From Candidatus Uhrbacteria bacterium (GTDB lineage: Bacteria; Patescibacteriota; Patescibacteriia; JACRJV01), in the NCBI GenBank assembly GCA_016215325.1, contig JACRJV010000015.1:1-51518 (forward strand): DNA of 51,518 bases, in the 5' to 3' direction. Numbering within the stretch: the stretch's first letter is position 1; each line of letters starts with the position of its first letter. A program made the translations under genes and the position numbers. The notes below the pieces were generated by a model. The model was not told the DNA's origin. It was given only the letters and a program-made list of their open reading frames with translations, and searched no databases. Below are positions 7,579 to 31,043 of this stretch, one piece after another.

Positions 7579-7938
7579 TCATCGCGGATTGACCAGGACC
7601 GCCTTATTCGCCGTTTGGATGATGAATGCAGCAATAGCGTATGCGCTGCCGATGACGATCATCCCCACAACTGTCCAAACAATCATCATTTTACCCTTCT
7701 CAACCTTGTCCTCTTCGCCGCGGGAGGTCAGCATGAGCACTACGCCGTACATAATCACAATGACGGCCATGACACCGGAAAGTGTAAAGATCAGAGCGGC
7801 AAAGCGCGCATAGAGCTGGGGGCTGGTCAACGCTTGGGATCCGCCGGTGAGGGGGTTGTTGATGGCGGTGAGGGCGTAGACTGCGGTGGGTAGAAATGGG
7901 ATCCCTAAAATAGTGATGCTTAATAGCTTTTTTACCAT
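7579..7938 (-). CDS. T4SS-pilin-like membrane protein 4
   Basis: 119 residues: signal peptide about 1-22 (ending VYA), a short exposed segment, membrane helix about 48-68, a loop reading LMLTSRGEEDKVEKG in place of the usual YGGxxWMT version, and a second membrane helix about 83-108. It keeps the GEEDKVEKG signature but has lost the aromatic YGGY/W motif, so it is the most diverged of the short members. It lies upstream of pilin 3 in the same orientation and just downstream of the repeat-flanked four-helix-bundle gene. Confidence 0.8.
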   Translation of the reverse strand: MVKKLLSITILGIPFLPTAVYALTAINNPLTGGSQALTSPQLYARFAALIFTLSGVMAVIVIMYGVVLMLTSRGEEDKVEKGKMMIVWTVVGMIVIGSAYAIAAFIIQTANKAVLVNPR

Positions 7939-7954
7939 ATGGCCTTAAGATGGT

Positions 7955-8445
7955 GAGGGGATAGGGATAGAAAGGGACAAAGGGGTATATAGGATATGTA
8001 GATCACCGATCGCGTTTGGTTATAATATATCGAATAAATTTATTCATCCCTATCTTCAGGCCTTCGTAACGATCTACGAGTTCCTGGGCACGGATATCTG
8101 AAATAAATTTTTTGGATGCGAGCGAAAGGATATGGTTCTCTGTCTCGGAAAGTTCTTTGCGAGCCGTATAAAACCCTTTAAGCTTATCGTTATAGTAGTA
8201 TGATCCATACCCCTCGGCAATATTATCGGGCACGGATGAGGACGATCGTTTAATTTGCGACATCCGTTCTCTTTCGTTGTTTGGGAGAATATTAGCAATA
8301 CCATGACAGATGACCATTAAAGCGTGAGCTTCTTGCCAAATTCGTAGTTCTTGGAATGATGCGTGGCGGGGCGTCTTCATAACGTTATCGTCCGTTTGCC
8401 TTTATACCCTTAATATCCCCGGTCCCTTTACATCCTTTGTCCCTC
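7955..8445. mobile_element. Candidate element: four-helix-bundle gene between inverted arms (locus 1)
   Basis: The left arm (7955-8000) and right arm (8399-8445) are imperfect inverted repeats: GAGGGGATAGGGATAGAAAG on the left faces the complement of CTTTACATCCTTTGTCCCTC on the right, both built from words such as AAAGGGAC and GGATAT. The four-helix-bundle gene occupies the loop almost exactly (stop at 8003, start at 8380). It interrupts the pilin operon between pilins 4 and 5. No transposase is present. The same word family forms the insertion at 15711-15837. Calling it mobile is inference. Confidence 0.5.
8003..8380 (-). CDS. Four-helix-bundle protein (S23/IVP family)
   Basis: 125 residues, the usual length for this family, which was first seen as ORFs in intervening sequences of 23S rRNA and is related in fold to Avd of diversity-generating retroelements. 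The motif order fits: ELRIWQEAHALM at the first helix, IKRSSSSVPDNIAEGYG at the second, then FYTARKELSETENHILSLA and a basic C-terminus. The biochemical role is not established; the family's basic surfaces suggest nucleic-acid binding. It is flanked on both sides by inverted arms (7955-8000 and 8399-8445). Compare the second copy at 11039. Confidence 0.88.
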   Translation of the reverse strand: MKTPRHASFQELRIWQEAHALMVICHGIANILPNNERERMSQIKRSSSSVPDNIAEGYGSYYYNDKLKGFYTARKELSETENHILSLASKKFISDIRAQELVDRYEGLKIGMNKFIRYIITKRDR

Positions 8446-8456
8446 AATGCCAGTCA

Positions 8457-9059
8457 TCACTCATTCTGGATGTGCCGCGAGCCCGTTGTCGTTTGCTGCC
8501 CGACATTGCCTATGCCGCAGACGTTCTGGAACGGATTCGCATTGCCGGTGAGTACTGTCAAGATGACCGCCACCAGTTGCCAAGCGAGGAGCACAAGGAT
8601 AATGCCAGCCAGCGCATTCCACATCGTTGTGCGCGCTTCCTTGATTTTTTCGTCATCGCCGCGGGCTACGATAAATCCAAAAGCTGCCCACGCACCAAAA
8701 AAGAGGGCAACTGCTCCGGCAATGGCAAGGATAAAGTTCCCGACATTGACTCCAACCTGGACAATATCGCACATCGAACATTTCCCCGCGTCTTTGCCTT
8801 CTTTTTTTATGCATTGCACGTTAAAAAGGAGCCCCCCTTTGAACTCGTTAATCGTGGGTTGCCCGGCGGGGACATTGCCATTAGCGCGGGTAGTGTCGGG
8901 GTCGGGGACTGCTGACGTGGGAGGCGCGCTTACTCCCGGCGTTGGATTGGTGGAGGACGTCGGGGGGGCGCTTTCAGCTTGAACGATCTGGATAGCATTG
9001 AGCGCCACGGTCAGAAGGCTGATCGCGAGGATAGAGAGGAAGCGTTTTTTGAGGAACAT
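8457..9059 (-). CDS. T4SS-pilin-like membrane protein 5 (long, cysteine-containing)
   Basis: 200 residues: signal peptide about 1-28, then a Pro/Ser/Thr-rich extracellular linker (about 30-65), a cysteine cluster (CIKKEGKDAGKCSMC), membrane helix, the loop FIVARGDDEKIKEARTTMW, a second membrane helix, and a C-terminal tail with one more cysteine. The loop keeps the GDDEKIKEA signature but not YGG. Four cysteines outside the membrane suggest disulphide-stabilised surface exposure. It is separated from pilin 4 by the four-helix-bundle element. Confidence 0.8.
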   Translation of the reverse strand: MFLKKRFLSILAISLLTVALNAIQIVQAESAPPTSSTNPTPGVSAPPTSAVPDPDTTRANGNVPAGQPTINEFKGGLLFNVQCIKKEGKDAGKCSMCDIVQVGVNVGNFILAIAGAVALFFGAWAAFGFIVARGDDEKIKEARTTMWNALAGIILVLLAWQLVAVILTVLTGNANPFQNVCGIGNVGQQTTTGSRHIQNE

Positions 9060-9068
9060 AAGTTTAAT

Positions 9069-9150
9069 TGGTACTAGGTATTTGGTATGAGGTATTAGGT
9101 ATGTGCAGCGACAACGACACGTATACTTTATACCTCATACCGTATACCCG
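9069..9150. repeat. GGTAT-type short-period hairpin downstream of pilin 6
   Basis: GGTACTAGGTATTTGGTATG and AGGTATTAGGTATG on the left face TATACTTTATACCTCATACC and GTATACCC on the right. It fills the pilin 5-pilin 6 gap. The same word family is at 9441-9626 and 14877-14968. Confidence 0.75.
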
Positions 9151-9153
9151 TCG

Positions 9154-9540
9154 TTACTGTCCCGTAAACACAACGATCACGTACTTGATGACCACGTAGA
9201 CCATGAACAACAATCCAACCCCGACTGCTGTGTAGAGGAGTATATTTTTTCCTCGCTCGACTTTTTCTTCATCGCCGGCAGCGGTGACCATGAGGAAGCC
9301 GCCGATGATGATAAACGTGAGTGCTGCTGCGCCGATGATAGCAAAAAAGGAATTTACCAAGATTCCAACCAATCCAACAAGGTTGTTCGCCTTAACAGGG
9401 TTATCGAGCTGTTTTGCGTGGGCGGGGAGCGCCGTACCAAGTATAAGGTATAAGGTATAAGGTATAAGGTATAAGGTATTATGTATAAAGTATAGAATCG
9501 CTGAACGAATTTTAGGAACACTATATTGAATGTACGGCAT
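9154..9540 (-). CDS. T4SS-pilin-like membrane protein 6 with repeat-derived signal peptide
   Basis: 128 residues. The mature part has a membrane helix, the variant loop GGFLMVTAAGDEEKVERG and a second membrane helix ending at the C-terminus, as in the other paralogues. The N-terminal region is unusual: the hydrophobic stretch LYLIPYTLYLILGT is the translation of the tandem word GGTATAA on the opposite strand, yet it ends in LPAHA followed by KQ, a plausible signal peptidase site. So the export signal appears to be built from an intergenic-type repeat. No internal ATG offers an alternative start. Confidence 0.78.
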   Translation of the reverse strand: MPYIQYSVPKIRSAILYFIHNTLYLIPYTLYLILGTALPAHAKQLDNPVKANNLVGLVGILVNSFFAIIGAAALTFIIIGGFLMVTAAGDEEKVERGKNILLYTAVGVGLLFMVYVVIKYVIVVFTGQ

Positions 9541-9626
9541 ACGAAATATTTATACCTTATACCAAATACCTATATACCGTATACCCACATCATACCTAAT
9601 ACTTTATACCCCATACCTTATACCCG
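9441..9626. repeat. GGTATAA tandem words facing ATACCTTATACC arms
   Basis: Tandem GGTATAA copies (9441-9480) continue into GGTATTATGTATAAAG; the other side (9551-9626) carries many TATACC, CATACC and AATACC words. The arms could pair over more than 40 bases with mismatches. The left arm lies inside the 5' coding part of pilin 6 and the right arm fills the gap to the solute-binding protein gene. The direct repeats are not CRISPR-like because there are no unique spacers. Confidence 0.8.
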
Positions 9627-11011: not shown

Positions 11012-11029
11012 ACTCGGTATGTTCTCGGA

Positions 11030-11476
11030 ATATAGAATCTAGAATTTAGAATCTCTGTGAGACGGTGTGATGGTCATCTTTGTGCTTTTGATTGGACCTT
11101 GAGTTATCTTGGCGGCTTCAATAGTTTTGTTGGCAATTTGATTAAATTCATCTTGGGTCATGTAGCCCACATCTCGAGCGATCAACAGCTGGTTTTGGAC
11201 CTCCGTGAGAGATCCGATAGCCATGTAATAAAATTGTAATTTTTCTTTGTAAGAATTGCGACTAAATCCTTCTGCGATATTTGATGTAAACGATACAATC
11301 GCGCGACGGAGTTGATTTGTTAAGCCAAACATTTCTTCTTTTGGGAATTTTTTTGTTTGAGAATAAATGTCGATCACTATTTTATGACCTTTTTGCCAGG
11401 CATGGAGATCGGTGAACGAGCGAATGCTTCCATTACTCGTCATATTCTAGATTCTAAATTCAATATTCAAGATTCT
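11030..11476. mobile_element. Candidate element: four-helix-bundle gene between inverted arms (locus 2)
   Basis: Left arm 11030-11055 (ATATAGAATCTAGAATTTAG then AATCTC) faces right arm 11441-11476 (CATATTCTAGATTCTAAATT then CAATATTCAAGATTCT). The arms are inverted copies of the word AGAATCTAGAATTTAGAATC. The four-helix-bundle gene fills the loop. Its last codons lie in the left arm, and the last codons of galU lie in the right arm. A word of the same family (AATCAAG x4) is inserted in copA. Mobility is inferred; no transposase is seen. Confidence 0.5.
11039..11443 (-). CDS. Four-helix-bundle protein (S23/IVP family), second copy
   Basis: 134 residues with the same motif order as the gene at 8003 but clearly diverged: FTDLHAWQKGHKIVIDIY, then EEMFGLTNQLRRAIVSFTSN, IAEGFSRNSYKEKLQFYYMA and LTEVQNQLLIARDVGY. 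The C-terminal residues (RDSKF) are encoded by the inverted arm, so the tail is repeat-derived. It sits between galU and the solute-binding protein gene, both on the same strand. The two copies use arms with quite different words, so the arms are not copies of each other although the arrangement is the same. Function unknown. Confidence 0.88.
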   Translation of the reverse strand: MTSNGSIRSFTDLHAWQKGHKIVIDIYSQTKKFPKEEMFGLTNQLRRAIVSFTSNIAEGFSRNSYKEKLQFYYMAIGSLTEVQNQLLIARDVGYMTQDEFNQIANKTIEAAKITQGPIKSTKMTITPSHRDSKF

Positions 11477-12330: not shown

Positions 12331-12427
12331 ATTAATTTTCAATTTTTAATTAAAAATTTTCAGTGAATGAATAAATGAAACATTGAAAATTCAATGAAAA
12401 TTGATAATTGTAAATTGCAAATTAAAT
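12331..12427. repeat. TTGAAAATT-type hairpin between DedA and galU
   Basis: ATTAATTTTCAATTTTTAAT on the left faces CATTGAAAATTCAATGAAAA and TTGATAATTGTAAATTGC on the right, giving an imperfect hairpin. The same word family fills the gaps at 34190-34312 and 42326-42437. Confidence 0.72.
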
Positions 12428-14871: not shown

Positions 14872-14876
14872 ACTGG

Positions 14877-14968
14877 TCTATGGTATGTGGTATATGGTAT
14901 AAGGTATTAGGTATGCGTATCGGCGCAATCTGAGTACCATATGCATGATACCTTATACCTTATACCCG
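14877..14968. repeat. GGTAT-type hairpin between divergent genes
   Basis: Words TATGGTATGTGGTATATGG and TATAAGGTATTAGGTATG face ATGATACCTTATACCTTATA. Same family as 9069 and 9441. It fills the intergenic space completely, so any promoters for the two divergent genes must lie within it. Confidence 0.78.
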
Positions 14969-30383: not shown

Positions 30384-30395
30384 TACTGTGAACAG

Positions 30396-30423
30396 AACAC
30401 CCTCCGAATTTCGGAGGGTGTTT
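30396..30423. terminator. Terminator-like hairpin downstream of the toxin gene
   Basis: AACACCCTCCGAA pairs with TTCGGAGGGTGTT, 13 bases per arm; runs of T follow on the minus strand. Identical in its core to 31001-31031. In order on the minus strand: toxin, this hairpin, then the Phd promoter. Confidence 0.8.
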
Positions 30424-30427
30424 GGTA

Positions 30428-30688
30428 TTATCCATACAACTGTGCATGGGTGCCGATGGCCGCAAACTCTATAATATCATCGCCCCATTCTCGATAGACC
30501 GCCCGATAGTCGCCCGTGATGTTGATACTACGGTAATGAGCGTACCGACCATGGAGTGCATGATTTTGAAGTAAGGGGTCGAAGGGAGAGGAGAGGAAGA
30601 TATTCCTCCGCTGTTTGAAGTTTTCTCGCACATCCTGTGGGAGCTTTTTGTATTGCTTGTCAAATATTCGGGCATAGATGACCCTCAT
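30428..30688 (-). CDS. RelE/ParE-superfamily toxin
   Basis: 86 residues: MRVIYARIFDKQYKKLPQDV and SSPFDPLLQNHALHGRYAHY, RSINITGDYRAVYREWGDDI and EFAAIGTHAQLYG. This fits RelE/YafQ/YoeB-like mRNA interferases (or ParE-like), where a Y/H/R-rich face cuts or binds RNA. The stop precedes a strong terminator. It overlaps the antitoxin gene by ATGA, the classic toxin-antitoxin arrangement. Confidence 0.88.
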   Translation of the reverse strand: MRVIYARIFDKQYKKLPQDVRENFKQRRNIFLSSPFDPLLQNHALHGRYAHYRSINITGDYRAVYREWGDDIIEFAAIGTHAQLYG

Positions 30689-30960
30689 AATGAATCGAGA
30701 TGCTCATCCATTTCTTTAATTGTCGAGAAGGGGCCGGCATACCTGCCTCGTCGATGGTCGATTTCTACTTCGGCAATGATGTCTTCAAGATATGGTGTCA
30801 TCGTAAAGCCAGTAGTAAAGTGGACAGACCGCTTGCGGATGAGCTGTTTTAAGGAAGCGTTCACATAGGTGCTCAAAGAAAAACCAAGATCTTCAGCCGC
30901 TCGTTGCGCTTCGCGTTTCACCTTTGGATCTAACTTGACGTTGAAGGATGTTGTTTTCAT
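30685..30960 (-). CDS. RelB/DinJ-type antitoxin
   Basis: 91 residues. N-terminal ribbon-helix-helix: TTSFNVKLDPKVKREAQRAA, then EDLGFSLSTYVNASLKQLI. The C-terminal part (EDIIAEVEIDHRRGRYAGPF, STIKEMDEHLDSL) is acidic and would wrap the toxin. Neutralises the toxin by binding, and usually represses the operon. The start at 30960 follows a very close promoter, giving a leaderless or almost leaderless mRNA. The stop overlaps the toxin start. Confidence 0.88.
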   Translation of the reverse strand: MKTTSFNVKLDPKVKREAQRAAEDLGFSLSTYVNASLKQLIRKRSVHFTTGFTMTPYLEDIIAEVEIDHRRGRYAGPFSTIKEMDEHLDSL

Positions 30961-30968
30961 ATATCTAA

Positions 30969-30996
30969 AGTATATATTTATGGATTATTTTGTCAA
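30969..30996 (-). promoter_or_regulatory. Promoter of the RelBE-type module
   Basis: TTGACA (30991-30996) and TATACT (30969-30974) on the minus strand with 16 bases between, 8 bases from the relB-type start codon. The transcript would be leaderless or nearly so. Confidence 0.75.
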
Positions 30997-31000
30997 TACC

Positions 31001-31031
31001 AAAACACCCTCCGAATTTCGGAGGGTGTTTT
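31001..31031. terminator. Terminator-like hairpin downstream of pnp
   Basis: AAAACACCCTCCGAA pairs with TTCGGAGGGTGTTTT; T-rich on both strands. It serves as pnp's terminator and lies directly before the relB promoter. Same core as the copy at 30396-30423, with GTATTGACA following it in both places on the minus strand. Confidence 0.85.
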
Positions 31032-31043
31032 GTGGCTGTTTAC

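Follow-up and report, generated by a model that had tools for sequence, protein, structure and literature searches.

An S23/IVP gene located in a pilin operon of a Candidatus Uhrbacteria bacterium (positions 8003-8380 of the 51,518-nucleotide contig JACRJV010000015.1, hereafter the window) is enclosed by inverted arms built of degenerate 7-nt words. We think it probable that this gene is one copy of a widespread unit, the "heptad-arm S23 element", whose protein recognizes its own heptad arms and of which the intervening sequences (IVSs) of 23S rRNA are a special case. In this unit, about 0.45-0.6 kb long, tandem degenerate 7-mers would form a 5' arm, followed by an S23/IVP gene and then by the inverted complement of that arm; the whole would occupy intergenic gaps of operons and be transcribed in the same direction as the surrounding genes. 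Its transcript could adopt a long stem whose loop contains the ORF, like that of the 23S rRNA IVSs.

Results

An S23/IVP gene between inverted arms in a pilin operon

The protein encoded by the focal gene scores above the cut-off against both PF05635 (72.8 bits, 3e-20; cut-off 33.8) and TIGR02436 (70.9 bits, 9e-20; cut-off 24), and its AlphaFold2 model (pLDDT 94.6) has four helices. By HMM score and four-helix-bundle fold, it belongs to the 23S_rRNA_IVP/TIGR02436 family. Both neighboring genes (7579-7938 and 8457-9059) lie on the same strand and match T4SS_pilin, in agreement with a preliminary description of this DNA that placed the gene inside a pilin run. The arms were also correctly located in that description to within a few bases; they contain the GGATAT words reported there, alongside AAGGGAC words, and share an 11/11 complementary pair (AGGGACAAAGG / CCTTTGTCCCT). 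When the arms were compared with shuffled sequence, their score (16.5) exceeded the mean obtained from Markov-shuffled flanks (9.5; p = 0.0015), and the RNA fold of the element was somewhat better than those of shuffles (z = -2.1). The focal copy is among the weaker, more degenerate ones, with a mix of 7 and 8 nt in its arms. A scan of the focal region for RNA families yielded nothing beyond a sub-threshold miRNA match.

The resemblance to an IVS outside rRNA, also proposed in the preliminary description, holds for the architecture: a sense ORF sits in the loop of an inverted stem. The gene is found between T4SS-pilin genes, however, and not in a helix of 23S (or 16S) rRNA.

Table 1. S23/IVP genes, arms and ORF-less heptad hairpins in the window.
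Feature	Coordinates	Strand	Evidence or position
S23/IVP four-helix-bundle gene, 125 aa	8003..8380	-	PF05635, TIGR02436, AlphaFold2 model
5' arm (gene sense), degenerate heptad words AAGGGAC / GGATATT / AAGGGTAT	8403..8446		directly upstream of start codon
3' arm (gene sense), inverted complement of 5' arm	7954..7998		directly past stop codon
Second S23/IVP gene, like architecture, other word (TAGAATC)	11039..11443	-	E 1.4e-35
Arm of second S23 copy, gene-sense 3'	11028..11054		
Arm of second S23 copy, gene-sense 5'	11449..11475		
ORF-less heptad hairpin, GGTATNA words, in pilin operon	9070..9148
ORF-less heptad hairpin, AGGTATA words, around 5' part of ORF 9154-9540	9433..9624
ORF-less heptad hairpin, GGTATAA words	14873..14968
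ORF-less heptad hairpin, AATTGNA words	12333..12424

The focal genome (1.14 Mb in 27 contigs, 92.6% complete) harbors six S23 genes, all six with inverted arms that hug the ORF when inspected by eye, and the six copies carry six different words. In two of them, the 3' arm falls within the last codons. The 23S gene of the same genome (in L292) contains no S23 gene. Hairpins without ORF, which had been noticed before, are indeed present (at 9070-9148, 9433-9624 and 14873-14968, among other places), and most heptad hairpins lack an S23 gene. Close to its 5' end, ORF 9154-9540, called as a pilin gene, crosses a heptad array (9433-9494); because the pilin match begins after the array, the true start is probably downstream of the called one.

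Two other arrangements deserve mention. In contig C9 of the focal genome (L308:8177-8977), a PurQ-like gene, with no S23, lies in long inverted heptad arms with TTCGGAT words; its arm score of 56.5 is the strongest wrapping in the sample, and heptad arms may thus carry cargo other than S23. In the window itself (30392-31033), two palindromic ACACCCTCCGAATTTCGGAGGGTGTTT blocks, 94% complementary, face each other around the small ORFs 30428-30688 and 30685-30960, and are possibly paired terminators around a two-gene unit.

Inverted arms accompany the S23 family

Arms were called at a score of 16 or higher. When 345 genes were scored in about 405 kb of the focal genome, nine had such arms: all five S23 genes in this sample and 4 of 340 other genes, the latter being crude ORF picks (Fisher p = 3e-9). 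Two of those four are neighboring pilins. In broader samples, arms mismatched between loci were used as control. Arms were detected at 83% of 69 S23 loci from the focal genome and relatives of the same class (3.8% when mismatched), and at 78% of 78 loci retrieved in a scan of 84,980 species genomes (5.3% when mismatched), a set that spans Patescibacteria, Bacteroidota, Bacillota, Acidobacteriota, Pseudomonadota, Planctomycetota, Nitrospirota and others. Plasmid copies from cyanobacteria and Riemerella had arms in five of six cases. Altogether, 149 of 180 S23 loci (83%) were armed, against 4.1% of mismatched controls. The family is also abundant: of 381 genomes that were sampled within the class, 248 contain S23, with up to twelve or more genes per genome.

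These figures bear out the proposed association of inverted arms with the four-helix-bundle family. Loci that have the gene and no detectable arms of that score do exist (17% of the 180), and on balance the association stands. The data also support a far wider reach of wrapping, IVS-like architecture and ORF-less hairpins than the preliminary description knew; the 7-nt periodicity, the clade-specific words and the orientation rule described below are additions to it.

The arms are heptad arrays paired in register

Arms match themselves at lags of 7, 14 and 21 nt with frequencies of 0.50, 0.49 and 0.47, compared with 0.32 in shuffled sequence. The focal genome at large contains 35 tandem arrays of period 7 and no more than six arrays of any other period between 5 and 16. 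The 7-nt periodicity typical of STRR-like repeats is therefore a trait of the arm set, while the focal copy itself is degenerate. Pairing between arms reaches 0.795 in register and about 0.52 when one arm is slid by 7 nt in either direction, a gap that in part reflects selection because the register was optimized. Pairing in a single register is informative nonetheless: had the two arms been drawn independently from one degenerate word, they should pair about equally at every multiple of 7. On the sense strand, the 5' arm is rich in G (G>C in 46 loci, C>G in 9). We considered whether the 7-nt spacing might serve to place stop codons in all frames. TAG words are enriched in the arms, but in non-TAG arms periodic stops are no more frequent than in column-permuted heptads (0.31 vs 0.37), and this explanation was discarded.

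The heptad word follows the S23 protein clade

In a tree of S23 proteins, neighbors have words in common. TAGNNNN is the word of the largest sampled clade, found in many phyla and unrelated contexts. AATT-type words occur in the "IEAQAASS" clade, which holds both Patescibacteria and Bacteroidota, and other clade words are ATATTGT and GTTAACG, the latter at two loci (L028 and L004) of different families. Loci for a test of the TAG word were picked by protein, not by arms. With the TAG clade defined as proteins at least 45% identical to that of L014, and a TAG word as TAG recurring two or more times at 7-nt spacing, TAG words were present in 46 of 78 loci of the clade and in 4 of 84 more distant loci (p = 9e-15, a nominal value, as are all those relating word to clade, since the counts take no account of common descent among loci).

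A Mantel test over all S23 protein pairs was flat, with no correlation with word similarity, because word similarity saturates and the signal is lost below about 50% protein identity; hence our use of clade and nearest-neighbor tests. Nearest protein neighbors, limited to pairs without similarity in their flanking genes, had a word similarity of 9.7, compared with 6.7 for permuted partners (maximum 7.2), and division into identity bins revealed a gain in word similarity in the same orientation only. The fact that the word changes with the branch of the protein family suggests that the S23 protein and its repeats are one unit.

S23 elements occupy gaps in unrelated operons

At 103 loci, the S23 gene has the same orientation as both of its neighbors; at 4 loci it runs antisense to the two. 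The operons occupied are unrelated: reading of translated neighbors identified sdhA-sdhB, fadB-fadA and moxR-DUF58 gaps, and annotation revealed the arrangements cas6-S23-cas4 and cas10-S23-cmr3. In three loci from cyanobacterial plasmids (L335, L337 and L339), S23 genes are found within cas operons, with heptad arms in L337 and L339. At L007:1400-1960, an S23 element occupies the space between the preceding gene (hisS-like by reading) and a tRNA gene just upstream of a 23S rRNA gene. This locus is near, not within, the 23S gene, and none of the fetched loci had S23 inside a 23S gene.

The moxR-DUF58 gap of Chryseobacterium contains an S23 element in about 31 of 100 genomes. In other alleles of the site, the arms flank a decayed S23 gene (L246-L249, L264) or stand by themselves (L238-L240, L243, L245), or else the gap has an ORF-less hairpin with a different word, TAGGGAT (L230-L236, L241). 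A tree of the flanks requires 19 changes in gene presence, at least 13 of them on well-supported branches, and on this tree L108, with the gene, is placed next to the ORF-less L230. Such changes may be losses, gains or allele exchange between species. Where the gene is present, its dN/dS ratio of about 0.09 indicates purifying selection and hence a working protein rather than debris. Species-specific compensatory pairing at this site was weak: arms paired barely better within their own species than across species (p = 0.02 with the gene, 0.29 without), and covariation in ORF-less hairpins involved 3 of 14 pairs.

The preliminary description had suggested that the element might be mobile. Scattered contexts and the presence/absence of S23 at the moxR-DUF58 site support this claim indirectly; neither a clean junction nor a target duplication was found at any insertion, including moxR-DUF58, whose alleles have other arms or decay. 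The best within-genome duplicate (L167 and L168, 85% identical) is not a recent clean-ended copy either: about 600 nt are shared, including promoter- and terminator-like sequence beyond the arms, and it may be a cassette duplication. In these two loci and in L162 and L164 (genomes G053 and G011), a promoter-like TTGACA-N17-TAAAAT, best seen in L168, lies ahead of S23 along with a hairpin of the GGGCGTCC type that includes a T-run; L167 and L168 also have a block similar to this leader downstream. The leader looks like a genus-specific leader or a cassette junction. Concerning spread by phages, one S23 query was unmatched in 50,697 phage records.

Discussion

The closest structure to the model of the focal protein in the PDB is 2gsc; 2rld also matches, followed by entries for Avd and for ribonucleoproteins of diversity-generating retroelements (DGRs). 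The solved relatives 2gsc and 2rld have five chains per entry, and a Xanthomonas S23 protein has been described as a homopentamer (PMC4990558). The Avd match (4dwl) has a TM score of 0.76 with a sequence identity of only about 10%. As Avd acts in an RNA complex, RNA binding by S23 can be fairly inferred.

We propose a mechanism in three steps, with confidence falling from one to the next. S23, which is related to Avd in fold and whose solved relatives are pentameric rings, would bind its own heptads, probably as RNA. Host RNase III might then cut the stem from the operon mRNA, and insertion in an operon would be tolerated as a consequence. Lastly, the unit could spread as a selfish element by means of host enzymes, having no reverse transcriptase of its own, and would decay to ORF-less arms. 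A broader view is offered tentatively: S23/IVP could be a large protein family that reads heptads, with a separate 7-nt word recognized by each clade, and this code could underlie much of the heptamer repeats and the 23S IVSs, as one class of mobile hairpin element without a transposase or reverse transcriptase of its own.

Several known systems bear a likeness to the element. In the 23S rRNA IVSs of Leptospira and Coxiella, a long inverted stem likewise encloses a sense S23-family ORF in its loop; those IVSs are located in rRNA, however, whereas the elements described here are found in protein operons, in many copies per genome and each with its own word. IVSs with an ORF in the stem loop are cut by RNase III, and the Coxiella IVS, with a 28-bp stem cut by this enzyme, has GACAGAT heptads just before the S23p start (PMC4990558), an observation that connects the rRNA and operon forms. 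Passages of PMC4692102, PMC3488679 and PMC4679880 describe heptamer repeats (STRR, GGGAATC in Xanthomonas, GGGGA(T/C)T in Nostoc, TAACTGA in Beggiatoaceae and the P6b hairpins of the Nostoc tRNA-Leu intron) as degenerate tandem 7-mers between genes, partly in inverted pairs or hairpins; those passages make no link with S23, while here the word is tied to the S23 clade.

Avd has the four-helix-bundle fold in common with S23, with the low identity given above, and differs in the association of DGRs with a reverse transcriptase, for which the focal genome gave no match. REP/RAYT and MITE elements are dispersed short hairpins, some with a gene and most without. The S23 element resembles them in these respects, but it has no transposase, its arms are 7-nt periodic, and target duplication was unseen; the terminal inverted repeats conserved between copies that define transposons and MITEs are not found in the focal genome, where six copies have six words. 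TRAP is a ring-shaped protein with regularly spaced (G/U)AG triplets; its fold is unrelated, and the 7-nt spacing and paired arms of the S23 element set the two apart, so the likeness is an analogy only.

Might the arms be independent of the protein? Heptad hairpins could arise in operon gaps by polymerase slippage and inverted duplication, and harbor S23 because the hairpin insulates, their repeats being unrecognized. Slippage has been proposed for the abundance of heptamers (PMC4692102), S23 is absent from most heptad hairpins, a PurQ-like gene is likewise wrapped, and one and the same Chryseobacterium site also holds ORF-less hairpins. We nevertheless regard this explanation as unlikely, given that words track the S23 clade across phyla, in unrelated contexts and in one orientation, and that S23 is wrapped in 5 of 5 cases against 4 of 340 other genes. 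Alternatively, S23 might regulate the host operon by binding heptad leaders, as TRAP does on (G/U)AG repeats, and the unit would be kept for regulation rather than being selfish. A purine- and G-rich 5' arm in the sense strand (46 vs 9 loci), lying over the ribosome-binding region, fits such a role, as do sense orientation in operons, purifying selection on S23, the five chains of its solved relatives and the position of Beggiatoaceae TAACTGA heptamers just upstream of start codons (PMC4679880). Yet the host operons (pilin, sdhAB, fadBA, moxR-DUF58, cas) are unrelated, gene presence changes often at a single site (at least 13 times on well-supported branches), and a TRAP-like leader needs no inverted partner arms; regulation in cis seems to us quite unlikely as the reason for the unit.

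S23 could also act like Avd, together with a reverse transcriptase supplied in trans that copies the hairpin RNA. Its Avd-like fold and the sense orientation, which suggests an RNA intermediate, would agree with this idea. However, RVT_1 had no match in the focal genome (92.6% complete) nor in the S23-rich genomes G011, G053 and G014, and was present in the S23-free genomes G005, G009, G017 and G043. Dependence on a reverse transcriptase was thus rejected as a requirement, and the already weakened helper role appears very improbable. Recognition of the heptad arms by the S23 protein is the reading we prefer.

The components of this proposal had already been published separately: IVSs, S23p structures, heptamer repeats with their inverted pairs, and the occurrence of S23 in cas loci, with 18 genes inside cas operons (PMC4990558, PMC4692102, PMC3936711). 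In the open-access full text covered by our search, no paper apart from the Coxiella description connected S23 proteins with heptamer repeats. The S23 genes in cas operons look like insertions and not like Cas components, and the heptad-arm S23 element offers a reason for their presence there. Two old puzzles are thereby joined, namely the role of the S23 ORF in ribosomal IVSs and the abundance of degenerate heptamer arrays in bacteria. A word that tracks the S23 clade across phyla makes both puzzles amenable to a simple binding assay, and the S23 protein and its repeats, taken as one unit, provide a testable origin for both of these unexplained bacterial features.
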